In this document: in pieces, positions 1-23,679 of the stretch | How the letters are laid out: each line of letters opens with the position of its first letter | Numbering within the stretch: position 1 is the stretch's first letter | Virus record (IMG/VR): IMGVR_UViG_3300030107_003648 | Location: 1-23,679 of that record | Length of the DNA: 23,679 bases | Reading direction: 5' to 3' (one strand) | Origin: a virus | Position numbers and translations under genes: made by a program | Notes under the pieces: generated by a model | Databases searched by the model: none | Seen by the model: the letters and a program-made list of their open reading frames with translations, nothing else | Told to the model about the DNA's origin: nothing

Positions 1-17
1 ATAGAGATTATTGGAGT

Positions 18-5881: not shown

Positions 5882-5891
5882 CAATCTAGTT

Positions 5892-6368
5892 ATGAGTACT
5901 AATTCCAATCGGAAGTCGCGTAGTCCTAAAGAGTGGGAAGCGAAGTTTATGCGTAAGCTTCGTCCCGCTCATGGGACACATGCTAAAAGAATGTTTCATA
6001 GATTAATGAAGAAATCTTCTACTCTTAAATCATCTCTTAAAAAGAGAAGTAAAGAATATGAAGTTAAGTTTAATATATCATTAACAGAAATACGTGAAAT
6101 GCTTTATTTAGCATACAGCAGACCCTGTAAATACTGTAAAAAGAAGCTAGATGTAACTAATATGGTTTGTGACCACAAACACCCTATATCATCTGGAGGA
6201 GGTTCATTTAAAAGCAACCTTCAAATGATATGCGCATCTTGTAATACTAAAAAAGGTCCACTTACTGATAAAGAGTATAGGACATTTATTAAATGGATTA
6301 GTAAACAAGATGATAGGGTTAGAAGTTATATCTTAAGAAAACTAGCAAAATCAGATGTATTTAATTAG
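5892..6368 (+). CDS. HNH endonuclease
   Basis: A 158-aa protein with a very basic N-terminal half and a C-terminal HNH nuclease domain. Two zinc-binding pairs, C79-x2-C82 and C114-x2-C117, flank the catalytic D94-H95 and N109, with the usual S-G-G-G stretch between (101-104) and C-N-x-K-K-G at 117-122. The enzyme should nick or cut DNA with a metal ion. Free-standing HNH genes in phages are either homing enzymes or packaging/processing nucleases. Nothing here shows an intron or split gene, and it sits within the replication operon rather than next to a terminase. No clear Shine-Dalgarno precedes the ATG at 5892. An internal Met at residue 20 is an alternative but has no better site. Confidence 0.82.
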   Translation: MSTNSNRKSRSPKEWEAKFMRKLRPAHGTHAKRMFHRLMKKSSTLKSSLKKRSKEYEVKFNISLTEIREMLYLAYSRPCKYCKKKLDVTNMVCDHKHPISSGGGSFKSNLQMICASCNTKKGPLTDKEYRTFIKWISKQDDRVRSYILRKLAKSDVFN

Positions 6369-6376
6369 GAGATAGA

Positions 6377-6526
6377 ATGGCACTTACAGAAAAGCAAAAA
6401 AAAGTAATGAACAAGTTGAATGATAAGAAGAAACAACGAATTTTAAAAGCTACTAACAATGGTCGATGTTGGTGGGTTTATCAACAATTAATAGCTAACC
6501 CTAGACAAAATAGGACAACTAGATGA
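6377..6526 (+). CDS. 49-aa basic hypothetical protein
   Basis: A short frame (starts M-A-L-T-E-K-Q-K-K, ends N-R-T-T-R) preceded by AGGAG (6367-6371) five bases before the ATG. It is Lys/Gln/Asn-rich with a central C-W-W motif. Its stop overlaps the next start as ATGA, a typical coupled junction, which supports both. No family recognised. Confidence 0.55.
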   Translation: MALTEKQKKVMNKLNDKKKQRILKATNNGRCWWVYQQLIANPRQNRTTR

Positions 6527-6651
6527 AGAAATTAAATAGTTATAAAACATTTCTTATAAATATTCTTTGGAAATTAGGTTATAAACCTAGTAAATTATCG
6601 ATACTCTTTAAAGTATCAACAAGGACTATTTATAGGAAATTATGGAAATAA
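6523..6651 (+). CDS. 42-aa helix-turn-helix mini-protein
   Basis: A tiny protein (starts M-K-K-L-N-S-Y-K) whose second half, G-Y-K-P-S-K-L-S-I-L-F-K-V-S-T-R-T-I-Y-R-K-L, has the helix-turn-helix pattern of resolvase/Hin-type domains. The start overlaps the previous stop (ATGA) and the end overlaps the next start by ten bases. It is probably a stand-alone DNA-binding peptide or a remnant of a larger regulator. I see no ribosome site, so it likely depends on coupled translation. Confidence 0.5.
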   Translation: MKKLNSYKTFLINILWKLGYKPSKLSILFKVSTRTIYRKLWK

Positions 6652-6734
6652 ATAACTGTTTACAATGTGGTAGTATCGTTCCAGGTGGCGATTGTGGTTA
6701 CGTATGTATGACATGCGGCTACAGCGAAACCTGA
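6642..6734 (+). CDS. 30-aa zinc-ribbon micro-protein
   Basis: The frame encodes 30 residues with two Cys pairs, C6-x2-C9 and C22-x2-C25 (C-M-T-C-G), plus C18, separated by a Gly-rich turn. This is the layout of a complete minimal zinc ribbon. AGGAA lies a few bases upstream of the ATG, overlapping the preceding HTH mini-gene. The regular cysteine spacing makes it unlikely to be random. Role unknown; single zinc ribbons often contact nucleic acid or polymerases. Confidence 0.5.
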   Translation: MEINNCLQCGSIVPGGDCGYVCMTCGYSET

Positions 6735-6765
6735 AGCGATATTACACCTAGAACTGGAGGTTCTA

Positions 6766-6900
6766 ATGCAAGGAGTAAGCAAAGAGTGGTTAAGGAGATT
6801 GAATGAACAAACTACTAATAGAGTACATAACAAAGTATCTAAGAATGCCTGTAAAAAGACTAGATGTAGGGAGAAGATGGTACAGCAAAGGAGAAAGTAA
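6766..6900 (+). CDS. 44-aa very basic hypothetical peptide
   Basis: A frame with a strong GGAGG (6756-6760) five bases before its ATG. The product is Arg/Lys-rich (ends Q-Q-R-R-K) with two Cys (29 and 34). It overlaps the PD-(D/E)XK nuclease gene by 98 bases in another frame. The ribosome site argues that it is translated. Alternatively it is a leader whose translation opens the nuclease start, whose own AAGGAG lies inside this frame. Confidence 0.4.
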   Translation: MQGVSKEWLRRLNEQTTNRVHNKVSKNACKKTRCREKMVQQRRK

Positions 6901-7561
6901 AAACTGGAAACCTTCTGTAACAACTGTAATAGGAGAAACATGTGCTAAAGGAAAATTCTTTGAAGAATGGTTAATGAAAAATGGTTTAAATGCGATGCAG
7001 CTGAGGGACGAAGCTGCAGAGCGAGGGACCGAGGTGCATGAGGCAGTAGAAAAACTGTTAGATAAGGAAGAGGTGACTACAACTAACGAATTTATCCAAA
7101 AGTCACTTATGTCATTTGAGAAGTGGTATTCCGATACCCAGCCAAAAGTGGAAGCGAAAGAACTGTTTCTATACCACAAAGACATTCCTTGGGCAGGAAC
7201 TCCAGATATTATAGCTGAAGTTAATGGACGTTTATCTATAATAGATATAAAAACTGGAGATTACAGAAAATCACATGAAATACAACAGTTAATGTATAAA
7301 GACTTATGGAATAGCATATTTCCAACTCATCGTATTGAGGATATATATGGTTTATACATTAAAGGTAAATGGATAAAAGAACCAAGTTATGGGTTTAGGA
7401 AGTTCAAAACGGACACAGATATACATGATAAAGTGTATGAATTGTGGTGCTTCCTAAACTTCCCTTATGGAAAACCTTGGCCTAAACAAAAAGCAAAATT
7501 AAAGGAGGTGTTTAGTCTTGAACAAGATGGAGCTGAACGATGCCTTGAACAAATGCTGTGA
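6803..7561 (+). CDS. RecB/Cas4-like PD-(D/E)XK exonuclease
   Basis: A 252-aa nuclease of the PD-(D/E)XK superfamily. Motifs in order: R74-G-T-E-V-H79 (the R-G-x-x-x-H helix), E120, A-G-T-P-D135 as motif II Asp, I-I-D148-I-K150-T-G as motif III, and Q161-x3-Y165 as motif IV (Q-x3-Y). These define the RecB/Cas4/lambda-exonuclease-like branch. No four-cysteine iron-sulfur cluster like that of Cas4/AddB is obvious. It likely resects dsDNA ends to make ssDNA for the Sak4-SSB annealing pair in the same operon, or degrades host DNA. AAGGAG (6792-6797) sits five bases before the ATG. The 3' end contains the ribosome site and TTG start of the next gene. Confidence 0.85.
   Translation: MNKLLIEYITKYLRMPVKRLDVGRRWYSKGESKNWKPSVTTVIGETCAKGKFFEEWLMKNGLNAMQLRDEAAERGTEVHEAVEKLLDKEEVTTTNEFIQKSLMSFEKWYSDTQPKVEAKELFLYHKDIPWAGTPDIIAEVNGRLSIIDIKTGDYRKSHEIQQLMYKDLWNSIFPTHRIEDIYGLYIKGKWIKEPSYGFRKFKTDTDIHDKVYELWCFLNFPYGKPWPKQKAKLKEVFSLEQDGAERCLEQML
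7501..7510 (+). promoter_or_regulatory. Strong ribosome-binding site for a TTG start
   Basis: AAAGGAGGTG, nearly a full anti-16S match, ends seven bases before TTG at 7518 and lies inside the nuclease gene. It is the reason to accept the TTG start rather than the ATG three codons later. Confidence 0.65.
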
Positions 7562-7721
7562 TAAAGTAAGAGATTTATCAATAGAGTTAAGACATAAGGA
7601 TAAAACAATAATGAACCTAAAGCGTCAGCTAAAAGGTGAAAAACAACTTCGAGAGAAAGCTGAGAGCTACTACAAAGAGCTCGAAAGCTTTCTTGAGAAA
7701 GAAGGAGAAAACAATGGCTAG
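7518..7721 (+). CDS. 67-aa coiled-coil hypothetical protein
   Basis: Starts at TTG behind the strongest ribosome site of the operon and overlaps the nuclease gene by 44 bases. The product is highly charged and helical from about residue 5 to 63, with heptad-like Leu/Ile spacing, so it is probably a coiled coil. No catalytic motif or family is recognised. Its stop overlaps the next start region by eight bases. Confidence 0.65.
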   Translation: MNKMELNDALNKCCDKVRDLSIELRHKDKTIMNLKRQLKGEKQLREKAESYYKELESFLEKEGENNG

Positions 7722-8007
7722 AAAAGGTGGTAAAGGAAAACCAACTAGAAAAGAAATAGATAATGCAATACAAAATCTTTATGAAGGTTTGCAACTTATA
7801 GGGCAAAAATTACAGTATTTAGAAGGTTATGCTAAATCTACTGAAACTGCTTTAGATTTATATATTAAATTCAAAAAAGATGAAAAAGGATTTGGTGAAA
7901 GAATTAAGGAATTTAATAAGGAATTAGAAAAAAAAGCTAAAGAAGAAGAGAAAAAGGTAGCTTCTGAAAAGAAACTGCTTAAATTTAACTATGGATATAT
8001 GCGATAA
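7714..8007 (+). CDS. 97-aa charged helical hypothetical protein
   Basis: The chosen ATG at 7714 has AAGGAG (7702-7707) six bases upstream. An in-frame ATG at 7636 would add 26 residues but has no such site and would overlap the previous gene heavily. The protein begins with a basic Gly/Lys segment (K-G-G-K-G-K-P) and continues as a long amphipathic helix ending in a Lys/Glu-rich stretch. Coiled-coil or small scaffolding-type proteins look like this, but I do not recognise a family. Confidence 0.65.
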   Translation: MARKGGKGKPTRKEIDNAIQNLYEGLQLIGQKLQYLEGYAKSTETALDLYIKFKKDEKGFGERIKEFNKELEKKAKEEEKKVASEKKLLKFNYGYMR

Positions 8008-8173
8008 ATGTGAAAAGGAGATAAGTACACTAGAACCTTGCTTTAAAGTAAGCTATGGTTTCTCAAATGAAGATGAGTCTTTTTTTGAAGATATTTATTT
8101 AATACTACATTTAGAATGCTTAAATGATGAGGAAGTTTTATCTGCTATATTGAGTAGTTTAAAAAAAAATTAG
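7991..8173 (+). CDS. 60-aa putative zinc-binding protein
   Basis: A small acidic protein with C4-x2-C7 near the start and H40-x2-C43 (H-L-E-C-L), the ligand layout of a treble-clef or zinc-knuckle fold, plus C17. It overlaps the previous gene by 17 bases without a visible ribosome site, so coupled translation is likely. It is the last gene of the rightward block: its TAG shares four bases with the end of the convergent 561-aa gene. Confidence 0.55.
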   Translation: MDICDKCEKEISTLEPCFKVSYGFSNEDESFFEDIYLILHLECLNDEEVLSAILSSLKKN

Positions 8174-8205
8174 TCTTCGTTGTCAGAAAGAGCTGAAAGA
8201 CCTTT
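8161..8205. terminator. Possible bidirectional terminator at the convergent junction
   Basis: TCAG (8183-8186) pairs with CTGA (8193-8196) around a 6-base loop. GTCTT (8173-8177) pairs with AAGAC (8197-8201), leaving a 5-base bulge on one side. On the leftward transcript the hairpin is followed by nine T after TAA (A-run 8161-8169). On the rightward transcript it is followed by CTTTT. The hairpin is imperfect, so this is a candidate only. Confidence 0.4.
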
Positions 8206-9855
8206 TAAAGTAGCCATTCCAGCAACTGCAGGACCAACAACATCCAATCCTAATTTCATTCTAGCTTTATTAAAAGCTCTTATTTGTTCAGGTGTAGCTG
8301 TACCATTAGTAACTGAAGTATAATATTTATAATAATCAGCTACATCTTGATTCCAAGTTTTAGTACTTCTTGTATATTGAGACAAATGAGCTCTATTTTT
8401 AGGAGTTTTACCTATTAAACCAAAGTATTCTTCGACATCTTGAGAGTATTCTTTGGTTTCTTTTATACCATATTTTTTAGTTTGAACTTCCTCTAATTCA
8501 GGTACAACTTTTTCTTTAACTTTTCCATTGTAAGAATTTTTAGTTACTTTATTAACATCAGTAAATTTAGGAACTTTTTTGTTCTTAATAGTAGGAACTT
8601 TGATATATTTAGCAGTGGAAACATTTAATAAAGTAGTAGGCCTTAATTTACCTAAAGTATCTAAAGGAACATCATAAACATCAGTACCAAAAACACCTAC
8701 CTGACCTTTATGCATTTTTTCATTAAAAATTAAGTTACCATTAAAACCACCCCAATGATAATTACCTTTTCTTGAAGGACTAAATTGTAAATGTGTGGTA
8801 CCCTTTTTAGTCTTTTTAATTCTTATGAATAATTTATTATCACCTTTACCAACAAAAAACCTTGTTTTAGAACCTTCTATAGGTTTCCATCCAGCGTCTA
8901 CAAAAAATTTATGAAGTTTATTTATACTACTTCCAGGACCCATTAAACCTTTTTCATAAGCCAAAAATGCTGTTTTTCCTTGTTTACTCATAATTATATC
9001 TTGAACTGGATTTTGTAATTGATTTACTTTAAAATTAGCTACATTTACTTTACCTGTTTTTAAAGCTTCTTTTAAACCTTTTTCCCAAGGTGCTAAACCA
9101 GTTGTTAAAACATCTGGGTCCTGTATATTCATATCTTTTCTTAATCTAACAAAACCACCATCTTTACCAAGTTTACCATATTGTTTATATTCAGCCATTG
9201 GTTTTATAACTTTATACAAAGGAGAAGCCATAGCCGCATCTATACCTTCTTTTCTAACTTTTAAAGCAAAAGCATTATTAAATTCACCTAATAATTTTTT
9301 ATCTAAATGAGTAATAGAGGCTCTAGCTGTATCTGTTAATTTACTAGTTATATCACCACCAACCCAATTTGTTTTATTTTGTAATATAAGGTTTTTAGCG
9401 CCTATAATTTCATCAACAGATTGTTTAATTGCTGGTTCTAAACCAACTTTAGTTTTTGCTAAATCAATATTAACATCTGCTAATTTCCTAAAACCTTTAC
9501 CTGTCCCTTTTACACCTTCTTTAGCTAGTAAACCAACTTTACCTAAAGTAGATATACCAGAAGCGTAATAACCATCAATATAATTTCTCATATTAGAAGC
9601 AGCATTTCTCATTATTCTACCATTTTTTAATATTAAACCAGCTCCCAACATCATAGCTGCAGATATTAAAGCACCTTTACCACTTCCAGTTGCTTTTTCA
9701 GCAATATTACCAATACCTTTTAAAACTTTAGCTTCTGGATACCAATTAGTATTAGACATATTAGTATCTCTAAAAGCATCTATAGTGCCTTCATCTTTAG
9801 ACATGTTCCAGTCTTTATTAACAATTTGTTGTAATATTTTTTCTGATTCAGTCAT
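8170..9855 (-). CDS. Probable internal virion/ejection protein (561 aa)
   Basis: Last gene of the leftward block. I recognise no named family. Residues 61-76 are a glycine/alanine-rich hydrophobic stretch (S-A-A-M-M-L-G-A-G-L-I-L) and residues about 538-556 form another, both of the kind seen in phage proteins that insert into membranes during DNA ejection. A central region (about 310-400) rich in aromatics, Gly and Lys looks like a separate beta-rich globular domain (W-K-P, F-F-V-G-K-G, N-Y-H-W-G-G-F-N-G). The ATG lies two bases after the giant gene's stop and has no Shine-Dalgarno, so ribosomes probably reinitiate. Placed directly behind the giant protein and ejection-type genes, it is most simply another injected protein; an attached effector domain cannot be excluded. 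Confidence 0.75.
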   Translation of the reverse strand: MTESEKILQQIVNKDWNMSKDEGTIDAFRDTNMSNTNWYPEAKVLKGIGNIAEKATGSGKGALISAAMMLGAGLILKNGRIMRNAASNMRNYIDGYYASGISTLGKVGLLAKEGVKGTGKGFRKLADVNIDLAKTKVGLEPAIKQSVDEIIGAKNLILQNKTNWVGGDITSKLTDTARASITHLDKKLLGEFNNAFALKVRKEGIDAAMASPLYKVIKPMAEYKQYGKLGKDGGFVRLRKDMNIQDPDVLTTGLAPWEKGLKEALKTGKVNVANFKVNQLQNPVQDIIMSKQGKTAFLAYEKGLMGPGSSINKLHKFFVDAGWKPIEGSKTRFFVGKGDNKLFIRIKKTKKGTTHLQFSPSRKGNYHWGGFNGNLIFNEKMHKGQVGVFGTDVYDVPLDTLGKLRPTTLLNVSTAKYIKVPTIKNKKVPKFTDVNKVTKNSYNGKVKEKVVPELEEVQTKKYGIKETKEYSQDVEEYFGLIGKTPKNRAHLSQYTRSTKTWNQDVADYYKYYTSVTNGTATPEQIRAFNKARMKLGLDVVGPAVAGMATLKGLSALSDNED

Positions 9856-9857
9856 AA

Positions 9858-12800
9858 TTATTTTGCAAATTTAGGATGATATAGTTCTCTATCATTTATT
9901 TGTTTTCTTAATTTACTAATATCTCCTAACGGAAATCCAGCCATTTTTTCTAAAATTCTATGTGGGTTATCAATTAAATTACCTTTAGCCAAAGGTGACA
10001 CATCTCTAACCATTCTTCCAAAAGGCATCATAGTATATACATGATAATTAGCTAATTTTTCATAATCATTATCTAAAAATGCTCTCAAACCTGCAACTGG
10101 AAGTCTCATAATAGGAGGAGTAATCATTTGTAATGGAGCTACAGCAGCAGGCCAAGTTCCAAAGAAAGCTTTATTTCTTTCATCCTCATCACCAAATACC
10201 CATTCAGAAGTATCTTTTAACCAGTTATAAGGGGCAGGTAAAGCACTATCAAATAAACTATAAGCAAACACATTAGCAAGAGCTAGTACAAACATATCAA
10301 TTTGCATAGTTCTTTTAAATCTTTCAAACTCAGCTGTACCTCTTCTAAATCCTCTTATTCTAGCTTCTCTTATAACATCGTTTCTAAATTTTACAGCATT
10401 CCAAGACCATAATTGGAAACGTGTCATAACTTTACCAAGAGCTGTTCTTGCAAAAGCAGGACGATAAGGAGCACTATATAAGAATTGTGTAGCTTTAACA
10501 CCTTTCTTAGCCATTTCTACTAAAAATGGATGGTCTGGGTTCTTTATTGTACCACCAAATCTTTCCCAATTTTGTATAAAATGAGCCATATAAGCATCTC
10601 TACGAAGCTTTCTTTCAGGAACAGACATAAATTTAGCTGCTGTATTCATTAGTTTTTCACCAACTTTATGTTGTCTTGCTAATTCTCTTAGAGTAGTTTT
10701 TTCAACTTCACCAGAGTTAGTCATCTTTTTACCTAAGTCTCTAATAAATGCTTTAGCATTAGCTGTTTGGGCTTCTCTAGATAAACCTAATTCAGCAGTA
10801 ATAAACTCAGGAAGAACACCTTTACTTACAACATAATCATCTACATCTTGCATAGATTTCATATGAGGAAATATTTTCTTTATTTCATTTATATCATTAG
10901 CTTTTTTAAGATACTTTAAACCAGTAGATTGAACAGTGTGTAAACTACCACCAAATATATTAGCAACTGCTGATTTAGGATGAGCAAGTAAAGACATAAG
11001 TTCAAATTTAGCTTCCATATTAGACCAGTTTCTAATATCACTATAACTAATACGTTCTAAATCATGTTTAACAACTGCTAAGTTTTTACCTCTTATACCA
11101 AGTTTTTTAGCTATTCTATTAACTTTTTCTTTAACTTTATTATCAGCCCACCAAGCATAAGGAGTTCCTTTAAGTTTCATTTCAGGAGAATCAATCATCT
11201 CTTGTGGAACAATACTAGGATTACCCATAGCATCTTGTAGATAAAGTCTTAAGAAATTATTCCATCTATCTAAAAGAGAGTAATTATCACCATAATCTTT
11301 TATTTTATGCCAACCATTCTTTTTACCTCTTTCGTTAAACTTATGCATTAATTGTCTAGACATTATTTGAGACATTTGTTTATAAAAAGTACTTATCTGA
11401 TTACGAGTATAAGATTCAGCTGCTTGTGCGTCTATAGAATAACCACCTATATGTGTTTTTCTAGACTGCATATTACCAGTCATTTGATTAGCATCAGGCC
11501 AAGAAACACTCTCTCTAGTTAATGACTGTTTTTCTTTTACTCTAGCTGCTGCAGCATCAAAAGCATCCCAATCTTCAGTACCTAAAGACCAATCACCTGT
11601 TATAGATTTACTTTTTTGTAATAATTGTGATAAAGCTATTTTCTTCTCTTCTTCAGTCATTTCCATATCATTTTTAATACGCTCATAAGTTTTCTTTACA
11701 GCTTTCATAGCTTCTTTACTATTAAAATGCATATGAGGCCAATAGCCTTCTGCTATTTTACCAACAGATTTTATCTCTTTACTTAATAAATAAGACTTCA
11801 TTTCTTTAGGGGCTAATTCTATCATCATAGATTTAGCAATACGTCTTAAATTAGTTAAACCAATATCCATAGATATACCTTTACCTAAATTAAAATCTTT
11901 TTGAACATCTCTTATAAATTTAGCATGGTCAACAATAGGGTCTAATTTAGTTTTTTTATCATAATAACCTATAATATACCTATCTTTCATTTTTTTCTTA
12001 CCAGCTTCAGTACCTTCTATCGTCTCATACATTTTTTCAAAATGCTTTTTATAAACATTTTTAACTCTATCAACAATGTCTTTGCCTGTAACTTCAATCC
12101 GCTTAGTAGTCCCATCAGCTTGTTTTTCAGATATGTAATATTTTTCATCCTTTATCCTTTCATAATCATGTTTTTCAACTGATTTTTTATAACTATTTCT
12201 ATACTCTCCAGCTATAATATTTCTTTGAGTAACACTTTTACCTTCATCATTCATTACTCTGTTAGCTTCTGATAACTGAGCCTCTCTAACAGCTACCCTT
12301 CTTAAAGCCTCACCATCAGTTATGCCTTCTAAAAATCCTAGTTGTCTTCTTAGTTCATTTATATAAAGCTCAGACATTTCTTGTCCTTGCTCATTCATTC
12401 TTCCTACAATGTTTTGAGCTGCTTCTATAATATTAGTAGGTTTTCTTATATCACCTTCAACAAATTCACCTTTATTATTAAGAAATAATCCTCTTTTCTT
12501 CAAAAACATAATATCATATTTCATCATTTCCCTATTAACAGTTTCAGGGAATTGAAGCCAATATCTACGTCTCATATCAGGTGTCTTTTCCTTAAATAAT
12601 CTTTGCCAAATAGTACCTCTTTTTACCTCTTTAAAGTAATTATTTAAATCAACGAAATCTTGTAGATTCATAGTATTTAAATCTTTTTCTAGCACACCTC
12701 TAACTATTTCATTTAAATTTAAACCAACTTTATTATTATAAAACTTTAAATTATCAACTAGCTCTGTAATAGCTTCTTTATGTTCTTTAGATAACTCTAC

Positions 12801-15800
12801 TTTAGCATCAGGTCTTCCAGTAACACCTTCAAAACCAGAAAACACTTCTGGTAAAGTATTACCTTCTACTTTTATATCAACTTCTGCTTCCATAAAAGAT
12901 TCATTCTCTAAATCTTTAACTTTCTTAGAATCCTTTTCAAAGCTGATGTCAGGTTTTTTAAATGATTTATTCATAACTGTAGAAAATTGTCCCATAAATT
13001 CTCTAACACTAGCTCCATCAACAGCTTCAGCATTAAATCCTAACATACTAGTGCTAGTTTTAGCTGATAACATTTTAAAGTGATGAAATAAATCATTATA
13101 CAATAGGTCTTCAGCTAATTTTTTACCCCATTTCTTTTCTAAATTCTCTATAGTTTTTAATTTTCCTCTATTAGCAGAACCTAATATCATCATATCAAGA
13201 AGTTTTCTACCTTGTGGTGTCAATGTTTGTTTAAAAGCTTTTATTTCAGCATTTACTTGAACTAAATCCTTTAAGGCGGATAGTTCTTCAGTTGGTTTTA
13301 CAAGAGTTTTCTTAAAACCTTCACCAAGTTGCTCTGGTCCATACATTTTTAACCAAGCTTCATTTAGTTCTTCTATAAATTTATCAACCTTTTTATCATT
13401 TTTCATTGCACCAAGAGACCTAATAAAAGACTGTCTCTCTTTAGCGTTTAACCAGCTTTGAGTTTTTATCTTTTGTGCAAATCTATTTATAGCAGCAATA
13501 TCAGATTTTGACATTCCTTTTGAATATTTACTTATTAAGTTAAAAGAAACCATATCAGTAACATCATTAGTAACAAAATCTTCACCCATCTCTACTAAAT
13601 CTCTTAATAACTTAGCTCTATCTTGCCATCTTCCTTTACCTTCTCTCATTTCTTTAGTAACATATTTTTCAAAAGGAGTATCTTTTATTATAGATAAAAA
13701 TTTTGAAGGGTCTTTTGCCGCTTTAATTAAAAAGAAATCGTGCATTAAACTTTCATTAACTATCTTTTCTAGTATAGGTCCTTTTTCAACAGCTATAGTA
13801 CTTCTTTCTAATATTTCTGCTAGCTCTGGATTTTCTTTAATAAACTTTAAATGCTCTTTATACATAGCTTCTAACCCATCAGTATTGATTCTTTTTAAAA
13901 CAGCATCATTTAATTTTATACCATTAGCTAGTTTTCCAATTCTAGATAGCATAGAGTTATCTGTTAAACCTAAAGCTTTGTAAGTTAAATTATTTACCTC
14001 TTGCATATTAAAGGCTCTATTTTCACCGTAATTTCTACTATACAACCCTTTATTTACATCTCTTAACTCACCATATTTACCTTTAAACATAAGTTTATCT
14101 ATATAATCTAATCTATCCGAACGAGATGCTTTTTTACCATCAATAGTAACATCAAAATAAGCTTCATGTAACCTACTAAACCAAGAATTTATACCCTTTA
14201 AACCTGCTTCATCCATAGGGTCTGAAGAAAATGCTATCATTGAAGAAGACAATTTTCTAGCTTTATCAACATTCTTTTTAGGTGTAACATTTATCACAAC
14301 TCTTTCACCATCTTCTTTAAATACTATTAAATCAGAAGAAGTATTTTGAAGTTCATTATGATATTGTTTCATTAATTGAGTCATAGTTACAGCTTCACCT
14401 AATTGATTTCTTCCGTCTCTAGCTCTTTCTGAAATCATTACTCTCCAACCTGGATTATATTTCCAAATGGCACTGTCTCTATTTTTAGGGTCAATACCAG
14501 TTTCCTTTTCAGAATCCTGTAAAGTTAAATCTTTTCTCGTTTCGGCTGTTTTATTTTTGTATATAGTACCGTCTTTTTCATAAAATTCTTCTTTATTTGC
14601 TTCAAATCCATCTTTCCATTCTTTTTTCCAACCTTCCCCTTTATTTCCTTTACGTCCTCCAAAGAATATAAACGATTCATCTCCATCAAGGTCTGCTCCT
14701 CCTTCTGCTTTCATAGCTCTTGAATGCATAAGAATACCATGACCTTTTCTACCAGTAAATCCTTTAAACTCTAATACTTGCAATCCACTTGTAGCATCCA
14801 TAGGGACACGAACTGTTGCAGCTCTTAATATTTCACCTACATCTTTATTTTGGTACATTTTATGTTTAGGATTATTATAGTCTGTCCATAATTTTTCCAA
14901 AGTTGTTTCAGTGTATCCATTTAAATGTGTTTTAATTTTTAGATTCCTAAATCCGTCATCAAGATAAAATATCTTGTCATTTTTTTCTAACTCTGGGAAT
15001 TGAATTTTAAACCATTCATCATAACCACGCATACGTGCAGCTGCAGAGTTTTCAACTGTAGGTTTAGATATTGCGTCCATAATAAAGTTTTTCATTACTT
15101 GTAATCTATAACTTCTAACATTTTTGTGTAAGAAAATAGGATTTATTTCACCACTTCTTCCAGCAGCACGTTCTGATTTAGCCCATAAAGCACCTTCTTT
15201 TATCATACGTTCAGCAGGTGTATTAAAATCTACTAAATCATTATCTAACTTAGCAACTTCAGCTTCAGTTACTTCACCAGATGCAACAAGTTCTCTAACC
15301 ATTTGTCTATTAAATTTCATTATTTGAGCAAAAGCAGCATCAGAAAATTCTGGTGTCCCGTGTTTTATTCCTTCTAATAACCTAGCTATACCTACCTTTT
15401 CTATATTTTCTGCTAGATATTTAGCATCAGTTTCATTTGGTGCTCTTAAATAATTATCTAAAATTCTATTAACCTCTGGGTCACCTTCATATCTTCTTAC
15501 TACAGTATCATTAAAGAAGTCTTCTAATACTGATTTTGGAAAGGGAGCAAAAGTATTCTGAGTCATATGAGTAAGAACCTGTTTAGGAATACGTTTAGGA
15601 TTTAACATTTCTTTACCTTGTATAACAGAGTAATTGTATTTTATATCATCTATTGGTAAATCATAAACATCTTTGTTATTTTTATAAAACATAGTTCCGT
15701 CACTATTACGACCATAATTATTTAATTGACGACCACCTCTTTGTTTAGCTGCTGATTCTTGTATTATCATATGAAGACCTTTTTTCTTCATAGCAGCAGA

Positions 15801-18800
15801 CATCTCAGGCCCAGCTGAATGCATCATATGCTTACCAAGTAATGCACCATTTTCATAATCAGGACTAACGATAAAGTTTTTATTTTGTCCAGTATTAGAT
15901 TCCATGCCAGCATCTCTTTGTAAAGCATCTATAACATCGTCTCTTACAATAGTCATACCATCAACACTAGTTTCATCATCGCTATTTTTATCTTTTATAG
16001 TAAGCTTTCTACCTAATTCTTTTTCTACATCTTTACTTAAAATATATCTAAACTTTATTCTTTGGTCATTTGGGTCTATAATTAAATCGGTAATACCTTT
16101 CTTTTCAAGTTGTGTCTTAATATATTCAGGAGATGCTTTATATCCAGGAGTAAACCATATCTGTTGTCGCTTATTCCAGGCTGTAGCATTCTTTATTGTG
16201 TGAAAATCCTTTGTTTTACCCAATAATTTACTTATAGCGGTACCCCATGCACCCTTCGTATTATCTCCGTTTAAAAGAGGGCTCATACCATTTAAATCTA
16301 TATCGTATAACATATTAGAGAATATCATTTCAGCTGTTCTCTTTTCATTAAATCCATATTTTTTATTAAACATTTTCATAGATGCTTGAAGTACTTTCAT
16401 ATCTTTAGAACCTACAGCTTTACTTATTTCTTTTAAAGGTATTCCACCTTCTTTTGAGTTTAACAATGGGTGTTTTTTAACAAAGTATATAGCATCAGCA
16501 TCACTTTTACCACCTAATGGATAATAACCTTGTTTATCCATTTCAGTAAATACTTCTCTAATTTTTCTATAGTATGCTTCCATACCATTGCCTTCACCCA
16601 TATCTCTTTTTAGGTTATATCTGTATCTGGATAAATCAATATCTTTGTAGCCATTTTTCCCACCCTCAGTTATAGTTTTAAATACAACTATAGTAGGTTC
16701 ATTAGTTAATTTATTACCTAAAACTAAATCATTAGCTTCATAAACCTCTTCTATTGCCTTTGTTGGTTCTACGACATAATCTTTATTACCTGCTCTTGTA
16801 TATACTTCTCCTTCTTTAGCAATGTATATACCAGTATCATCTACTCTTAAATACCTTACTTCTTTACCAAAGTTTTTTAATGTAAGCCATTGTCTTAAGC
16901 TACCTAAATCTTCACCTTTAAATTCTTTCTTTTCACCAAAGTTGTCTAATAAAAACTTCTCAAATTCTTTAGCAATAGCTTTTTCATTGACCTCTACATT
17001 TTTACCTACATAGTCAGATTTCTGCATTATATCCTGTAATATAGAAGCATATTCAGCTCTTTTTCTATTCTTCATAGCAGATGAATAACCATCTATGTCC
17101 CACAAGTCTTTTAAATGTCTATCTACAAACTGAACTGATTTCTTTTCAATTTGGTCTGCTATCATACCTATATCATTTCCATCTTCACTACGATTAGGTT
17201 CTACAGCTTCTTCTCTAACAAATTCTAAATTACCTTCTAAATCTTTTATTTTCTCTGCTATAGGAACTATTTTGTCCCTTGTAGCTTTAGCTTCTCTTTC
17301 AGCAATAAGTCTTTGACTTTTAGATAAATTCTTATCTTTAGCATCTGCTTCAAAAATATTTAATTCTTTTTCTAACTCTGTAAGTTCTTGATTTAATTTA
17401 TGAAACTCTTTTAACTTTACAGGGTCAAGGGTATTTATGTCTTTTTCTGATACAGCTTCTTTATTCTTAGAAACTTTAGGTTCGCCCTTACCAAAAGTAA
17501 CCCTATATAAGTCCTCAATAGCCTTATATCCAGCACTATTCTTTTTAATCTTTCTAGAACCAACACCAGCAAATCTTTTTACTAATTTAGGTGTTTCTTT
17601 TATCATAGTAAAACGTTTTAACTTATAATCGTATCTATGCCAATTTTTATTTTTTACATCAAAAACATATACATGTTTCTTTTTAGCATCAACAGCCATT
17701 TGAGCAGTCCAACCAGCTCCACCTTTAACTTGAGTTCCACCTTTTTGTAATTCACCTACAACATAAATACCATTAGCAGTCTTTACTTGCCACCATCTTT
17801 TTCTTAAATCATTAGATACAGATTTTCTTACCTTTTTACTTCCAATTCTTTCTAAACTTTGGTCAGCTAACCTTACCTTTTCATTAGCTTCACCTAATTC
17901 CCCTTCTTCAACTACCCTATCTAAACCTTTTGTATTACCTTTCTTTTGACCTTTTGTAACGTAATTAACAAATGGTACTTCATATTGTTCAACACCTATC
18001 CTAGCAAAATGAGTATCAGCACCTTGAGAACCTCCAGATATACCATGATGAACAACTTTATTAGGGTCGTCTAGTCTAACAACCTCTTGTCCATCTACTA
18101 ATTTATTTATAGTTTTAAATCCTTCAGGAGTAGGCAATCCAGTTTCTGTGTCTATAAGACCCATCTTTTCAGCAAAGATATTTATAGCTGCATGTCTTTC
18201 TTCTGGAGTTCCCCATTGTTTTGTAGCTAGCTCTTTTAATTCTTTTTGTACTTCAGGTTCATAACTTTTCCATTCCTTTAAAAGTTCAGGGTCCATAGTA
18301 AGCTTCATTTGTGGGTCAGTTTGAGCTTGTTTTTCCATCTTACCCATACCCTTAAATGCTTTAGCTTTATACCAAGGCATTTCCTTACCACCAAAATATG
18401 CACCTAATAAATAGTCATATATTTGCTCAGGAGTAGTAGCCCCTCTCATTGTAGAGGGTAATCCTTGGAATAAAGAACCTGCTAAAGTTCTAACAGCAGT
18501 ATCTGAACCTTTACTTCCAGTATTGATAAAGTTTCCTATAGCTCTAAACCCAGCACCAGCAACAGCTCCTCCGAATGCTGATTGCATCATACCATCTATA
18601 CCTTGTTGCCAACTACTAATAGCACTAGCAGTTCCTAAATGAAATGCTCCTTCAACTATATGTTTAGTTCTACCATGAGTAAGGAATTTAGTAGCAGTGC
18701 TAAATGCATCATATCTACCTTGAGTTGCACCTTCTATTGCAGGTTTAACAATTGATTTAGCTTTCTTTGTTAAAAAATTAGCACCCATCATAGGGACTGA

Positions 18801-19226
18801 ATAAGGGTTTAAAGCTCTAGCAGCTTGAGCTAAAGGATATGCTCTCATCATTTTTAATGGGCCAGCAGCAATACCTGGTGCAAAACCTACTAAATGCCCT
18901 ACATTACGTGCAATTGCTTCATATTCATTATCTGGGTGGTCAAAAGGGTCTAATGTAGTAAACCCTGAAATAACACCTTTACCAAATTCAGATAAAGCAC
19001 CCATAATACTAAAGTCACCTTTATAAAAGGGTATATTATACTGTACTGCATGTTTTTGGATTTCATCTACTTTTTGTGCTGTTATTGAACTAGGGGATTT
19101 TTTATATAACTCTATGTACTGCTGAACCACTTCAGGGCTCATAGTAGGTTGAAATCCCTCTTCAGGTGTAGCATTATCACCTATCGGAACATAAGGTTGA
19201 TTACTATCGAAATATGGATATACCAT
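9858..19226 (-). CDS. Giant polyvalent protein with two-barrel RNA polymerase core
   Basis: A single 3122-residue frame. Order seen: residues 1-390, Gly/Ala-rich helical segment with weak hydrophobic patches; about 390-590, SLOG-like nucleotide-binding region; about 1085-1165, candidate beta-like double-psi barrel (D1089-G; lysines K1149, K1161); 1473-1520, beta-prime-like barrel with R-V-P and A-D1512-L-D1514-G-D1516. In cellular RNA polymerases the three Asp of DxDGD hold the catalytic Mg, and R-x-P precedes them by a similar distance (35 in E. coli beta-prime, 39 here). Downstream, N-Q-L-G-E-A (near 1605) and S-S-D-P-M-D (near 1662) resemble conserved segments of crAss-like polymerases. 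From about 2100 it is mostly charged helices; about 2970-3045 holds hydrophobic segments. I infer a virion-packaged, injected transcriptase. The ATG follows the upstream stop by one base, without a Shine-Dalgarno. Confidence 0.75.
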   Translation of the reverse strand: MVYPYFDSNQPYVPIGDNATPEEGFQPTMSPEVVQQYIELYKKSPSSITAQKVDEIQKHAVQYNIPFYKGDFSIMGALSEFGKGVISGFTTLDPFDHPDNEYEAIARNVGHLVGFAPGIAAGPLKMMRAYPLAQAARALNPYSVPMMGANFLTKKAKSIVKPAIEGATQGRYDAFSTATKFLTHGRTKHIVEGAFHLGTASAISSWQQGIDGMMQSAFGGAVAGAGFRAIGNFINTGSKGSDTAVRTLAGSLFQGLPSTMRGATTPEQIYDYLLGAYFGGKEMPWYKAKAFKGMGKMEKQAQTDPQMKLTMDPELLKEWKSYEPEVQKELKELATKQWGTPEERHAAINIFAEKMGLIDTETGLPTPEGFKTINKLVDGQEVVRLDDPNKVVHHGISGGSQGADTHFARIGVEQYEVPFVNYVTKGQKKGNTKGLDRVVEEGELGEANEKVRLADQSLERIGSKKVRKSVSNDLRKRWWQVKTANGIYVVGELQKGGTQVKGGAGWTAQMAVDAKKKHVYVFDVKNKNWHRYDYKLKRFTMIKETPKLVKRFAGVGSRKIKKNSAGYKAIEDLYRVTFGKGEPKVSKNKEAVSEKDINTLDPVKLKEFHKLNQELTELEKELNIFEADAKDKNLSKSQRLIAEREAKATRDKIVPIAEKIKDLEGNLEFVREEAVEPNRSEDGNDIGMIADQIEKKSVQFVDRHLKDLWDIDGYSSAMKNRKRAEYASILQDIMQKSDYVGKNVEVNEKAIAKEFEKFLLDNFGEKKEFKGEDLGSLRQWLTLKNFGKEVRYLRVDDTGIYIAKEGEVYTRAGNKDYVVEPTKAIEEVYEANDLVLGNKLTNEPTIVVFKTITEGGKNGYKDIDLSRYRYNLKRDMGEGNGMEAYYRKIREVFTEMDKQGYYPLGGKSDADAIYFVKKHPLLNSKEGGIPLKEISKAVGSKDMKVLQASMKMFNKKYGFNEKRTAEMIFSNMLYDIDLNGMSPLLNGDNTKGAWGTAISKLLGKTKDFHTIKNATAWNKRQQIWFTPGYKASPEYIKTQLEKKGITDLIIDPNDQRIKFRYILSKDVEKELGRKLTIKDKNSDDETSVDGMTIVRDDVIDALQRDAGMESNTGQNKNFIVSPDYENGALLGKHMMHSAGPEMSAAMKKKGLHMIIQESAAKQRGGRQLNNYGRNSDGTMFYKNNKDVYDLPIDDIKYNYSVIQGKEMLNPKRIPKQVLTHMTQNTFAPFPKSVLEDFFNDTVVRRYEGDPEVNRILDNYLRAPNETDAKYLAENIEKVGIARLLEGIKHGTPEFSDAAFAQIMKFNRQMVRELVASGEVTEAEVAKLDNDLVDFNTPAERMIKEGALWAKSERAAGRSGEINPIFLHKNVRSYRLQVMKNFIMDAISKPTVENSAAARMRGYDEWFKIQFPELEKNDKIFYLDDGFRNLKIKTHLNGYTETTLEKLWTDYNNPKHKMYQNKDVGEILRAATVRVPMDATSGLQVLEFKGFTGRKGHGILMHSRAMKAEGGADLDGDESFIFFGGRKGNKGEGWKKEWKDGFEANKEEFYEKDGTIYKNKTAETRKDLTLQDSEKETGIDPKNRDSAIWKYNPGWRVMISERARDGRNQLGEAVTMTQLMKQYHNELQNTSSDLIVFKEDGERVVINVTPKKNVDKARKLSSSMIAFSSDPMDEAGLKGINSWFSRLHEAYFDVTIDGKKASRSDRLDYIDKLMFKGKYGELRDVNKGLYSRNYGENRAFNMQEVNNLTYKALGLTDNSMLSRIGKLANGIKLNDAVLKRINTDGLEAMYKEHLKFIKENPELAEILERSTIAVEKGPILEKIVNESLMHDFFLIKAAKDPSKFLSIIKDTPFEKYVTKEMREGKGRWQDRAKLLRDLVEMGEDFVTNDVTDMVSFNLISKYSKGMSKSDIAAINRFAQKIKTQSWLNAKERQSFIRSLGAMKNDKKVDKFIEELNEAWLKMYGPEQLGEGFKKTLVKPTEELSALKDLVQVNAEIKAFKQTLTPQGRKLLDMMILGSANRGKLKTIENLEKKWGKKLAEDLLYNDLFHHFKMLSAKTSTSMLGFNAEAVDGASVREFMGQFSTVMNKSFKKPDISFEKDSKKVKDLENESFMEAEVDIKVEGNTLPEVFSGFEGVTGRPDAKVELSKEHKEAITELVDNLKFYNNKVGLNLNEIVRGVLEKDLNTMNLQDFVDLNNYFKEVKRGTIWQRLFKEKTPDMRRRYWLQFPETVNREMMKYDIMFLKKRGLFLNNKGEFVEGDIRKPTNIIEAAQNIVGRMNEQGQEMSELYINELRRQLGFLEGITDGEALRRVAVREAQLSEANRVMNDEGKSVTQRNIIAGEYRNSYKKSVEKHDYERIKDEKYYISEKQADGTTKRIEVTGKDIVDRVKNVYKKHFEKMYETIEGTEAGKKKMKDRYIIGYYDKKTKLDPIVDHAKFIRDVQKDFNLGKGISMDIGLTNLRRIAKSMMIELAPKEMKSYLLSKEIKSVGKIAEGYWPHMHFNSKEAMKAVKKTYERIKNDMEMTEEEKKIALSQLLQKSKSITGDWSLGTEDWDAFDAAAARVKEKQSLTRESVSWPDANQMTGNMQSRKTHIGGYSIDAQAAESYTRNQISTFYKQMSQIMSRQLMHKFNERGKKNGWHKIKDYGDNYSLLDRWNNFLRLYLQDAMGNPSIVPQEMIDSPEMKLKGTPYAWWADNKVKEKVNRIAKKLGIRGKNLAVVKHDLERISYSDIRNWSNMEAKFELMSLLAHPKSAVANIFGGSLHTVQSTGLKYLKKANDINEIKKIFPHMKSMQDVDDYVVSKGVLPEFITAELGLSREAQTANAKAFIRDLGKKMTNSGEVEKTTLRELARQHKVGEKLMNTAAKFMSVPERKLRRDAYMAHFIQNWERFGGTIKNPDHPFLVEMAKKGVKATQFLYSAPYRPAFARTALGKVMTRFQLWSWNAVKFRNDVIREARIRGFRRGTAEFERFKRTMQIDMFVLALANVFAYSLFDSALPAPYNWLKDTSEWVFGDEDERNKAFFGTWPAAVAPLQMITPPIMRLPVAGLRAFLDNDYEKLANYHVYTMMPFGRMVRDVSPLAKGNLIDNPHRILEKMAGFPLGDISKLRKQINDRELYHPKFAK
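10092..10319 (-). other. C-terminal hydrophobic segments of the giant protein
   Basis: Residues about 2970-3045 contain F-V-L-A-L-A-N-V-F-A-Y-S-L-F and, further on, W-P-A-A-V-A-P-L-Q-M-I-T-P-P-I-M. These are long enough for membrane contact or insertion. A basic aromatic stretch rich in R, F and W lies before them. This fits a protein that crosses the cell envelope during infection; topology is not established. Confidence 0.45.
14652..14834 (-). other. Beta-prime-like barrel with RNA polymerase active-site motif
   Basis: Residues about 1465-1525 of the giant protein. R1473-V-P is followed by a strand-rich stretch (L-Q-V-L-E-F-K-G-F, G-H-G-I-L-M-H) and then G-A-D-L-D-G-D-E-S-F-I-F (D1512, D1514, D1516). 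The layout matches the E. coli beta-prime segment from R425 to D460-F-D-G-D. All three metal-binding Asp are kept. Confidence 0.78.
15732..15974 (-). other. Candidate beta-like double-psi barrel
   Basis: Residues about 1085-1165. S-V-D-G-M-T-I-V-R begins the segment, followed by N-K-N-F-I-V and later K-K-K-G-L-H-M-I-I-Q-E-S-A-A-K. Single-chain two-barrel polymerases carry a first barrel with conserved D-G and lysines upstream of the DxDGD barrel, the order seen here. The match is by pattern only and weaker than for the second barrel. Confidence 0.45.
17457..18059 (-). other. SLOG-like nucleotide-binding domain in the giant protein
   Basis: Residues about 390-590. S-G-G-S-Q-G-A-D-T (G398-D404) matches the S-G-G-x-x-G-A-D signature of DprA/YpsA-type SLOG domains. 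G-G-T-Q then G-A-G-W-T-A-Q-M-A (about 495-510) and H-V-Y-V-F-D follow as in the related phage and molybdenum-carrier-like branch. A second signature, F-A-G-V-G-S-R-K-I (about 551-559), usually found before G-G-x-x-G-A-D, appears after it. Confidence 0.6.
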
Positions 19227-19227
19227 A

Positions 19228-20412
19228 TTAGACTACTGATTGATAAGGTTTTTTCTTAGGTTCTTTAGTAGGCTCAACAGTATTTGAAGATTCTTTAAAA
19301 GAACCAATTCCTGAATATATCATCCATAAAGCCATAGCGACCTTTCCAGGAACTCCTGCTTTTGATATCATTTGCATAGCTTTACCTTTAGGTGCAGATT
19401 TAAAAGCTTGGAATGCAGTTGTAGCTGCACTTGCTCCGTATCCAGCACCTATAGTATAATTAGCCATACCTTCTAATTTTTTAGAATCCTTTTTATTTAA
19501 ACCAGCACCTTCAGCTAACATACTAATAGCAGTAGGAGCAAACATAGCACCGGCACCTCTTATCATTCTAGCTTGAGTACTCTGAGGCCCACCTGTTTTT
19601 CTCATCCAAGATTCCCATCTTGTAACTTTAGGGTCAACAGTAGGTTGTGGTCTTCCAGCTCTCCATTCAGCCATTTTCTTCTGATAAGCAGTTTGGTCTG
19701 TTGTATATTTTGCCTTACCACCTCTCTTCCAATGACCTTTTTTAGATTTATAGTCAGATTCTACAGGAGCAACAGGTTTAGGGTTGTTTTTAATATACTG
19801 TCTTAATCTATCCCTTTCAGCAAATTGAGCTCTTCTTGTTCTTTCATCGATACCTTCAGGAGTATCATCTACCATTCCTTGAGTATAACCATACCCAGCA
19901 AGACCAGCAGCAGTAAGTCCTGTTATAGTTCTTGGACCAAATACTTCACCTAATGATTTTTCAATAGGAGGAACAAATTGAGATAAAGCAGCTCTTTGAT
20001 TCTCATCTGCTGTATTTGCAATAGTTTTTACAAGTTCATCTCTAAAACCTGGATTGGTTCTAACAGCATCATGAATTTTATTTAAAGGTATTCCTGATAG
20101 TTGAGCTTGTTGTAAACTGCTAACCATTTGTTGGTTTTTAATTGTTTTTAATTGGTCATAATACTTTTTAAAAGTCATAAAATCAGGTACAGCACCTCTT
20201 GATTTAGCTCCCTTTTGATATTGTGACCACATAGCAGGTAATGAAGGTAAAGGAATATTAGGTTTACTATAAGAAGCAGTACCAGTATCACTATCCCAAT
20301 TTATTCTACCACCCATTTGAGTATAAGTACCAGCTATATTACTCCAATATTGTTTATCATATTTAGCTAAAGCTTGTTCTTTTAATTTAGTAAAATTCCA
20401 ATCTACTGCCAT
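19228..20412 (-). CDS. Probable ejection-type protein with hydrophobic segments (394 aa)
   Basis: Unrecognised by family. It begins M-A-V-D-W. The N-terminal half is Gln/Lys-rich and helical. Four glycine/alanine-rich hydrophobic stretches follow (about 163-180, 285-305, 320-337 and 353-371), separated by a strongly basic, Pro-containing linker (about 185-280). Proteins that form the trans-envelope channel in short-tailed phages have this sort of composition, and it lies immediately upstream of the giant protein. The start is set by GGAGGAG (20420-20426) seven bases before the ATG, which overlaps the upstream stop as TAATG. The C-terminus ends one base before the giant gene's ATG, so the two are translationally linked. 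Confidence 0.7.
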   Translation of the reverse strand: MAVDWNFTKLKEQALAKYDKQYWSNIAGTYTQMGGRINWDSDTGTASYSKPNIPLPSLPAMWSQYQKGAKSRGAVPDFMTFKKYYDQLKTIKNQQMVSSLQQAQLSGIPLNKIHDAVRTNPGFRDELVKTIANTADENQRAALSQFVPPIEKSLGEVFGPRTITGLTAAGLAGYGYTQGMVDDTPEGIDERTRRAQFAERDRLRQYIKNNPKPVAPVESDYKSKKGHWKRGGKAKYTTDQTAYQKKMAEWRAGRPQPTVDPKVTRWESWMRKTGGPQSTQARMIRGAGAMFAPTAISMLAEGAGLNKKDSKKLEGMANYTIGAGYGASAATTAFQAFKSAPKGKAMQMISKAGVPGKVAMALWMIYSGIGSFKESSNTVEPTKEPKKKPYQSVV

Positions 20413-21179
20413 TAAACTACTCCTCCAGTATGATGTGTTTGAGTTTTCTTTTTATTTTTTACTGGAGCTTCGCCTGTTCTTAAAGATACTGGATGGCCAA
20501 ACTCAGGACCTGCATTAGGATTTGCTCTGTTTATTCTAGATAACTCAGCACCATAACCCCCTACTGGTTGTGTTCTTCCAGGTACCCATTCTCCAGCTTC
20601 ATTCTGCACTAATCCTAATTTATTAAATTCAGGAGAAGGTAAATGTTTTAAAGAAGGTTTTATAAATTGTGGCTCTATTTCTTCAGAATACCCTGTATCT
20701 GGCATAGTAAATGAATCTCTTACCATATCTACGTCTGTAACATTATAGTCCTTAAACATATTAGCATACTCTTTAGGAGAGGCATTTTCAAAGTATTTAT
20801 ATATATTAGCAGTTCTATGAGCATTTTTACCTAAAGCACTTGTAGTGTCACCAGACTCTATAGCTTTAGCATAATCTGTATTAGGGTCTAAAATCTTTTC
20901 AAAATCCATTCTTTTATTACCAAGTACTAATTTTACAGCAAGTTCTGGTTCCATTCCATTTCTTATATAATACTCTACATCAGCGCGCAAACTATCTAAT
21001 ACATCACTTTTTATTCTTCTTTTTTCTATATAAGCTTTTAAAGGAATGTTATGGTCTTGTTGTATAGGACCCATAGGTAAATGTCCTCCTACAAGTCTAT
21101 CAGCAGCACCATAAATAGCACTACCCGCATCTTTAATTCCTCTACCAAATTTTTGTAATATATTAAATTCGTCTGCCAT
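20412..21179 (-). CDS. Hypothetical late protein (255 aa)
   Basis: No family recognised. The first 40 residues are Gly/Ala-rich and amphipathic (K-F-G-R-G-I-K-D-A-G-S-A-I-Y-G-A-A); the middle is charged and helical; the last third is Pro/Gly/Asn-rich and probably unstructured, ending in His-His-Thr-Gly-Gly-Val-Val. TAGGAGAG (21183-21190), overlapping the previous gene's TAG, serves the ATG. Its own stop overlaps the next start as TAATG. Position within the run of ejection-type genes suggests a minor virion protein. Confidence 0.65.
   Translation of the reverse strand: MADEFNILQKFGRGIKDAGSAIYGAADRLVGGHLPMGPIQQDHNIPLKAYIEKRRIKSDVLDSLRADVEYYIRNGMEPELAVKLVLGNKRMDFEKILDPNTDYAKAIESGDTTSALGKNAHRTANIYKYFENASPKEYANMFKDYNVTDVDMVRDSFTMPDTGYSEEIEPQFIKPSLKHLPSPEFNKLGLVQNEAGEWVPGRTQPVGGYGAELSRINRANPNAGPEFGHPVSLRTGEAPVKNKKKTQTHHTGGVV
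20420..20426 (-). promoter_or_regulatory. Ribosome-binding site for the 394-aa gene
   Basis: On the minus strand GGAGGAG lies seven bases before the ATG at 20412, inside the end of the upstream gene. It fits the TAATG coupled junction. Confidence 0.6.
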
Positions 21180-21187
21180 TTTCTCTC

Positions 21188-22216
21188 CTATCTATAGCCT
21201 ACTTTATATACTTGTTTAGCCCATTGTTCTGGTGACATTGGGAAATTGTGAGAACCTGCTAAATATTCTGAATATTCTTTTCTAAATCGCTCACCATCAA
21301 CTCCAGCTTTCTTTAAACCTTCTGAAAGTTGTGGGTCTATTGAAATAGGGTCACCACCTCCTTTAGGGTCATAATAATAAGCATTACCCAAACCTTCTAC
21401 TTTTATTTTAACACCACCACCTTGATTATTATTATTGTTATTTTTAGTGTTATTATTTTGAGTAACATCCCCAGTTTGGTCACCTCCCCCAGTTTGGTCA
21501 CCTCCCCAAAGTTTATTAACTAATTTAGCTAAATAACTATTAGCAGCTGGTTGATAATTACCAGTTACTATAGAACCAGGATACCATCCTAGTCCAGATT
21601 GAGGTGTAGTTAAATCTGCAAAATTTTGTGCGTTAGGATTAGTTCCTGATATTCTATCAAATCTTGATTGAGCTCCAGCTTTTCCTGCATCTTGATAAAG
21701 GTTAGATACTGGTCTGTATCTTTCTTTGCTAAATAATGCTTCTAAAGGTGACATTGAGCTTCTGTATGTCATATCTCCACCAACCCAATCAGCCATCATA
21801 TGCTCTCTCATTTGAGTTTCAAAAGGATTTAACTCATCTCCACCATATGGGTCCCAAATTCCATCATCTCCTTCTGTACCTAAAGTTTCCCACTTACCTT
21901 CAGGAGTTTGAAGCATCCATTTTCCATCAGCATTTCTAAATTGACCACCAGCTTCTGCAATATTTAAAAATCTTCCACCTTCTTCTTTTAACCATTCATC
22001 ATAAGAACCGTATACAGACTTATCAACATGGTCTTTATAGTAACTTCTTCCTGTCCCTCTTATAGCTTCACCTACGTTTTGAGTAGAAATATCATTTCTA
22101 GATGTACCTTTTAATAATATACTACCTAAAGCGCTACCTACATCTCTTGACGATTCTCTAGCATCTTTAGCAGCTAAATAACCTGGTATTTGATAACCTG
22201 ACCAATCTATTGCCAT
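21188..22216 (-). CDS. Hypothetical late protein with Asn/Gly-rich linker (342 aa)
   Basis: No family recognised. The start is placed at the ATG at 22216 (M-A-I-D-W), not the TTG at 22234, because the TTG codon lies within the purine-rich GGAGGAAAGG ribosome site and the ATG overlaps the upstream stop (TAATG). Residues up to about 230 are Gly, Trp and acidic rich. A low-complexity Asn/Gln/Gly linker follows, including two copies of G-G-D-Q-T-G encoded by an 18-base tandem repeat. A small domain closes the protein, with K-I-K-V-E-G-L-G-N-A-Y-Y-Y then a helical end. The layout suits a virion or ejection protein. Confidence 0.7.
   Translation of the reverse strand: MAIDWSGYQIPGYLAAKDARESSRDVGSALGSILLKGTSRNDISTQNVGEAIRGTGRSYYKDHVDKSVYGSYDEWLKEEGGRFLNIAEAGGQFRNADGKWMLQTPEGKWETLGTEGDDGIWDPYGGDELNPFETQMREHMMADWVGGDMTYRSSMSPLEALFSKERYRPVSNLYQDAGKAGAQSRFDRISGTNPNAQNFADLTTPQSGLGWYPGSIVTGNYQPAANSYLAKLVNKLWGGDQTGGGDQTGDVTQNNNTKNNNNNNQGGGVKIKVEGLGNAYYYDPKGGGDPISIDPQLSEGLKKAGVDGERFRKEYSEYLAGSHNFPMSPEQWAKQVYKVGYR
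21423..21462 (-). repeat. Asn-codon low-complexity tract
   Basis: A run of AAT/AAC codons on the minus strand (seen as ATT/GTT repeats on the plus strand) encodes a stretch of mostly asparagine with one Thr-Lys interruption. It is a simple-sequence tract that can change length by slippage. Confidence 0.6.
21472..21507 (-). repeat. 18-bp tandem repeat, two perfect copies
   Basis: The unit CAGTTTGGTCACCTCCCC (plus strand) occurs at 21472-21489 and again at 21490-21507. In frame on the minus strand it encodes G-G-D-Q-T-G twice, next to the Asn-rich linker. Confidence 0.85.
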
Positions 22217-23675: not shown

Positions 23676-23679
23676 CCCT

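Follow-up and report, generated by a model that had tools for sequence, protein, structure and literature searches.

What is the active-site signature of a cellular-type RNA polymerase doing in the middle of a phage protein of 3122 residues? The protein, here called the giant protein, is encoded by a single open frame of 3122 codons on the minus strand (9858-19226) of the window, i.e., the whole stretch of 23,679 nucleotides of viral DNA which was analysed. The initial annotation had reported an R-V-P and, 39 residues later, a GADLDGDE and had read them as the hallmark of a beta-prime double-psi barrel. The minus strand of 14652-14834, EILRAATVRVPMDATSGLQVLEFKGFTGRKGHGILMHSRAMKAEGGADLDGDESFIFFGGR, lies within this frame and encodes R1473-V-P1475 followed 39 residues on by G-A-D1512-L-D1514-G-D1516-E, which confirms residues and spacing. 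Given the amino-acid composition of the giant protein, chance would produce DxDGD 0.05 times, and 0.0014 times when an R-x-P is required 30-45 residues upstream. Packaged two-barrel RNA polymerases have been characterised from crAss-like phages, from P23-45 and from phiKZ-type jumbo phages. The gene and its parts are as follows.

9858..19226, minus strand: gene of the giant protein, 3122 aa, a putative virion RNA polymerase; single open frame, almost wholly covered by homology to full-length and ~50 partial relatives
17070..19226, minus strand: N-terminal part, residues 1-719, conserved among relatives
13527..17069, minus strand: modelled RNA polymerase module, residues 720-1900 (AlphaFold2, 52 family sequences, mean pLDDT 87, pTM 0.85)
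15732..15971, minus strand: predicted beta-type double-psi barrel (DPBB-B), residues ~1086-1165, approximate limits, from conservation; within the stretch aligned to crAss-like RNA polymerases and QDE-1
14652..15089, minus strand: predicted beta-prime-type double-psi barrel (DPBB-A), residues ~1380-1525 (model 661-806), approximate limits, from the model and the alignment to the largest subunits of Pol IV, Pol I, vaccinia and phiKZ RNA polymerases from model residue ~661-665
14802..14810, minus strand: R1473-V-P1475, the R-x-P of the beta-prime-type barrel; R and P invariant
14679..14693, minus strand: D1512-L-D1514-G-D1516, predicted catalytic metal-binding triad
13917..14453, minus strand: putative bridge helix and trigger loop region, residues ~1592-1770, approximate limits, assigned by position (long helix at model 873-910, alignment to model residue ~1050); holds the conserved F.SDP.DE.GL
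9861..13526, minus strand: C-terminal part, residues 1901-3122, conserved in relatives, with the most conserved stretch at 2881-3060

In the N-terminal part, residues ~390-430 (window ~17937-18059, minus strand), HHGISGGSQGADTHFARIGVEQYEVPFVNYVTKGQKKGN, resemble a Rossmann-like (SLOG/cpYpsA) nucleotide-binding loop; a profile hit was not obtained for them.

Are the supposed catalytic residues conserved? When peptides unrelated to the motif were taken from the giant protein as queries, two full-length relatives came to light (3123 and 3361 aa), which share ~55% identity and preserve the motif. Searching DNA for the pattern GGADxDGD[E/Q] gave 58 viral stretches, all of which, except L014, L053 and L064, belong to the giant-protein family. 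This set was selected by the motif itself and its motif conservation is circular. The homologue search was therefore repeated with the C-terminal third, which starts >600 residues away from the motif, and it yielded 62 loci. Of these, 56 rows cover the site, and not one of them has lost any of the three Asp, the Arg or the Pro, while the Gly between the Asp varies (DLDID, DLDAD, DHDID). Invariant Asp around a variable Gly match the prediction for a metal-binding triad, and the conservation expected at the outset is thus borne out in homologues chosen without regard to the motif. In the family alignment K1116, K1132 and K1161 of the beta-type barrel are invariant as well; pairwise identity of the family core has a minimum of 27% and a median of 37%.

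In three members of the family a DUF7831 domain is inserted in the polymerase stretch (Pfam, best E 4e-30); in the giant protein of locus L003 it seems to follow the catalytic barrel closely, a short way past the triad. As an inserted domain it does not identify the giant protein. Loci L014, L089, L126 and L177 encode other proteins of ~860-1160 aa with GGAD[VF]DGDE in different flanks, and these may be YonO-like single-chain RNA polymerases.

The barrel fold which had been anticipated around residues 1473-1520 is present in the confident AlphaFold2 model of residues 720-1900, and Foldseek and VIA both match this model to two-barrel RNA polymerases, with model residues 23-1061 matching complete enzymes of this type. 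Against the PDB, Foldseek returned five chains below E 1e-3, the phi14:2 virion RNA polymerase (2.8e-8) and four chains of QDE-1, in loose alignments with a TM of ~0.33. VIA listed QDE-1 (Z 16.0, 603 residues, 5.3 A), maize RDR2 (Z 14.9), P74 gp62 (Z 13.3, 456 residues, 4.7 A), phi14:2 gp66 (Z 12.4, 727 residues, 4.0 A) and the P23-45-type gp64 (8f72, Z 10.4). At lower ranks the largest subunits of Pol IV, Pol I and the vaccinia and ASFV enzymes align from model residue ~661, the triad region. All rows listed by VIA are two-barrel polymerases. The order of elements in the giant protein is beta-type barrel (~1086-1165), beta-prime-type barrel (~1380-1525), long helix and downstream region, and single-chain two-barrel enzymes have the same order (PMC10770324). 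By its modelled fold and its active-site residues the giant protein almost certainly is a member of the two-barrel superfamily. Residues 2120-3122 gave a low-confidence model and no PDB match below 1e-3; because a recognisable fold was not found there, an ejection role of the C-terminal part would rest on position.

How is the giant protein related to known enzymes at the level of sequence? The profile comparison suggested in the initial annotation had a divided outcome. Pfam, PHROG and PDB sequence profiles recognised nothing relevant in the giant protein or in 48 relatives, whereas hhalign against a profile of 11 crAss-like RNA polymerases from GenBank phages gave a score of 47 (P 4.4e-4, 367 columns), collinear through both barrels; the best of 40 column-shuffled controls scored 22.7 and the reversed control 20.4. 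The match indicates distant kinship only. Single sequences of YonO and of P23-45 gp96 and gp64 had no significant profile match to the family. The sole tblastn matches in INPHARED were again crAss-like RNA polymerases, in register, at E 6, which by itself is not significant, and among 50,697 GenBank phage records no significant relative was found. A scan of genomes for the motif gave, among the matches listed, chance hits in genomes rich in GC, as well as YonO-like proteins of Oscillospiraceae, and no family member. Two close relatives at 25-27% identity, A0A516LW39 and A0A516LAI4, are present in BFVD without names; thus, sequences of the family are already in UniProt. In the literature searched we found no published description of the family, which the P23-45 survey of viral two-barrel RNA polymerases (Supplementary Data 4) may list, and it appears to be undescribed.

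The likeness to crAss-like enzymes which had been drawn from the motif holds for the distant profile match and needs qualifying at the motif itself: the crAss-like RNA polymerases examined carry DFDID, DFDVD and similar, not DxDGD. Shared with phi14:2 gp66 (PDB 6VR4) are the single chain, the beta-type barrel ahead of the beta-prime-type barrel and a large protein. Both groups also have R-[IV]-P and a GF.P..G motif (GFTGR.G in the giant-protein family) ahead of the triad: the crAss-like string reads Y-R-[IV]-P ... GF.P..G ... G[SA]-D-F-D-[IV]-D, that of the giant-protein family V-R-V-P ... GFTGR.G ... GGADLDGD, with DLDGD as the usual form and DLDID in some members. Identity is ~11%, the genomes measure ~51 kb in the giant-protein lineage vs ~100 kb in crAss-like phages and, unlike the crAss-like enzymes, the polymerase is fused to a conserved C-terminal part of >1,200 residues. 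The Thermus phage enzymes P23-45 gp96 and gp64 and P74-26 gp62 are likewise two-barrel single-chain enzymes, with DFDGD or DYDGD, and gp96 is fused to a giant virion protein, the tape measure. However, P23-45 has a long tail and its RNA polymerase sits at the N-terminus of the tape measure; here the phage is of podovirus type and the polymerase lies mid-protein, encoded after the tail genes. YonO of phage SPbeta is a single-chain two-barrel RNA polymerase with DNDGD, yet it has 839 aa, shows no significant profile match and its gene is not of the giant virion type. The RNA-interference polymerases QDE-1 and RDR2, nearest in fold by Z score, are eukaryotic cellular enzymes with 10-12% identity.

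Which phages carry the giant protein, and where is its gene positioned? At least 22 contigs of 44-56 kb contain it; they come from uncultured phages, form one podovirus-type lineage and were each searched whole. The polymerase frame is present in 22/22, mostly with 2975-3364 aa and in two cases interrupted by contig ends. A P22-type portal was detected in all 22 and an SU10-type capsid protein in 21. A T7-type RNA polymerase was not found in the 22 contigs with PF00940, a profile which in controls detects T7 RNA polymerase and N4 RNAPII and misses N4 gp50. Judged by its portal and capsid, the lineage seems not to be of crAss-like type, in agreement with the suggestion of a phage lineage unrelated to crAss-like phages: in phi14:2 the SU10-type capsid was not detected and the P22 portal reached 1.9e-6, below the cut-off, vs values down to E 6e-76 in the giant-protein lineage.

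In the mapped contigs portal and capsid are on the polymerase strand, and in two relatives mapped gene by gene the terminase, portal, capsid, adaptor-like and tail fibre genes are consecutive on it. Eight near-complete genomes share one order, i.e., small early genes, a 500-aa gene, ThiF-like, Sak4, primase-helicase, endonuclease VII and then the convergent end of the late operon, of which the polymerase gene is the last or next-to-last member, facing the replication genes. In the window the surroundings of the gene are these.

3..8007, plus strand: opposing replication block with JAB, ThiF, Sak4-like, primase-DnaB helicase, HTH, HNH/endonuclease VII and exonuclease, by profile matches
8170..9855, minus strand: 561-aa gene following the polymerase gene, found in some relatives and missing from others
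19228..23678, minus strand: five genes (394, 255, 348, 300 and 186 aa) preceding the polymerase gene, where podoviruses encode internal or ejection proteins

The gene stands opposite the replication block, as had been noted, and its neighbours are putative ejection genes by position. In the relative G001 the 348-aa protein has a homologue whose gene lies between those for the tail fibre and the polymerase; this homologue carries a LysM domain at its C-terminus (E 5e-8), fitting a virion protein which meets peptidoglycan. Within the set of genes compared with Pfam and PHROGs, drawn from the plus strand of the window and from G001, a DNA polymerase was not recognised; primase-helicase, Sak4 and nucleases are present. 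The replication block also contains a Prok-JAB-like gene (window 880-1749, plus strand, E 1e-4, narrowly short of the Pfam cut-off), and the gene immediately after it is of ThiF (E1-like) type (1743-2498, plus strand, E 9e-16). The pair is kept in G001 and in a second relative, G002, and ThiF in most relatives; such a ubiquitin-like conjugation or deconjugation pair is unexpected in a small phage.

A repeated early promoter motif was not found in the early regions, and sigma-70-like sites occur at chance level. A TTAATTAAATTA-like word with three copies in G002 was rejected as a repeated promoter, its copies being at or inside reading frames. A hairpin with a stem of 11-13 bp and a conserved loop precedes the first of the small early genes by about 26-35 bases in G001 (L066:441-481) and G002 (L071:5221-5258); it was not seen in a third relative, G017. 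Its stem differs by paired changes, CTGATAAG/CTTATCAG vs CTGACAAG/CTTGTCAG. It could be a promoter hairpin as used by the N4 virion RNA polymerase, or an RNA element. A strong hairpin CTAGC...GCTAGG, terminator-like and conserved in both genomes, is located directly 3' of a 104-aa gene (L068:11048-11079 in G001, L071:7954-7981 in G002).

What, then, is the giant protein for? The computed fold, the conserved active-site residues, the place of the gene and the coherent phage lineage form the basis of the answer. We consider it a packaged early-gene transcriptase with a probability of roughly 0.8, by analogy with known virion enzymes. The closest parallel in layout is gp50 of N4 (Schitoviridae), of ~3,500 aa, which has N-terminal, RNA polymerase and C-terminal parts and is ejected together with gp51 and gp52, forming a transcribing channel (PMC12633501). 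Ejection proteins, by position here, are encoded with both, and both genes close or almost close the late operon, opposite the genes for replication. Because of this position, shared with gp50, packaging is favoured, and packaging with subsequent injection is the best reading of the locus. The N4 enzyme is a T7-type polymerase and the giant protein a two-barrel polymerase of unrelated fold; thus, it would be an analogue of the N4-type enzyme and not a member of that group.

We infer activity, packaging, injection, a DNA template and promoter use along the following lines. A single-chain DNA-dependent two-barrel RNA polymerase would be built into a three-part ejection protein, with an N-terminal part, the polymerase (~residues 780-1780) and the long conserved C-terminal part. 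The protein would be made late, be packaged into the capsid and enter the host via the short tail together with the DNA, where the injected polymerase would transcribe the early genes. In the active site, D1512, D1514 and D1516 of the beta-prime-type barrel are predicted to bind the catalytic Mg2+, the facing beta-type barrel would supply the conserved lysines and R1473 may contact the substrate.

It is unlikely that the giant protein is an active two-barrel RNA polymerase which is not packaged and which, like P23-45 gp64, is made during infection and serves middle or late transcription. The non-virion enzymes gp64 and P74 gp62 (roles according to PMC10770324) do align well, at the Z scores given above, yet they comprise ~600 aa and are encoded among early genes, whereas in every mapped genome of the giant-protein lineage the polymerase is embedded in a 3,100-aa protein of the structural operon and adjoins putative ejection genes. 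A packaged two-barrel polymerase which serves another purpose, be it as primase, as replicative polymerase or in copying RNA like QDE-1 and RDR2, is very improbable. QDE-1 and RDR2 are among the closest structures, and no DNA polymerase was recognised among the scanned genes; however, QDE-1 also takes DNA templates (titles of 7y7r and 7y7s), the phage encodes its own primase-helicase and transcription is the role described for comparable phage enzymes (PMC10770324, PMC7886860). Hardly credible is a structural ejection protein retaining an inactive RNA polymerase fold: most of the 3122 residues are non-polymerase and conservation among relatives is higher in the far C-terminal part than in the polymerase, yet the catalytic residues are invariant while their neighbours, including the Gly between the Asp, vary.

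A packaged early-gene transcriptase at this locus fairly probably represents an additional family of packaged giant two-barrel RNA polymerases, in which a podovirus-type lineage combines the gene layout of N4 with an enzyme of unrelated fold. Transcription coupled to genome entry from a giant ejection protein would then have evolved more than once, with different polymerases. N4 offers a direct comparison, with an equal genome position, a similar protein size and an unrelated polymerase. The finding would add a diverse family from small-genome podovirus-type phages which standard profile libraries miss entirely. The RNA polymerase core shares its fold with the enzymes which transcribe genes in all cells, and the family would contribute new sequence diversity to the deepest part of the RNA polymerase tree.
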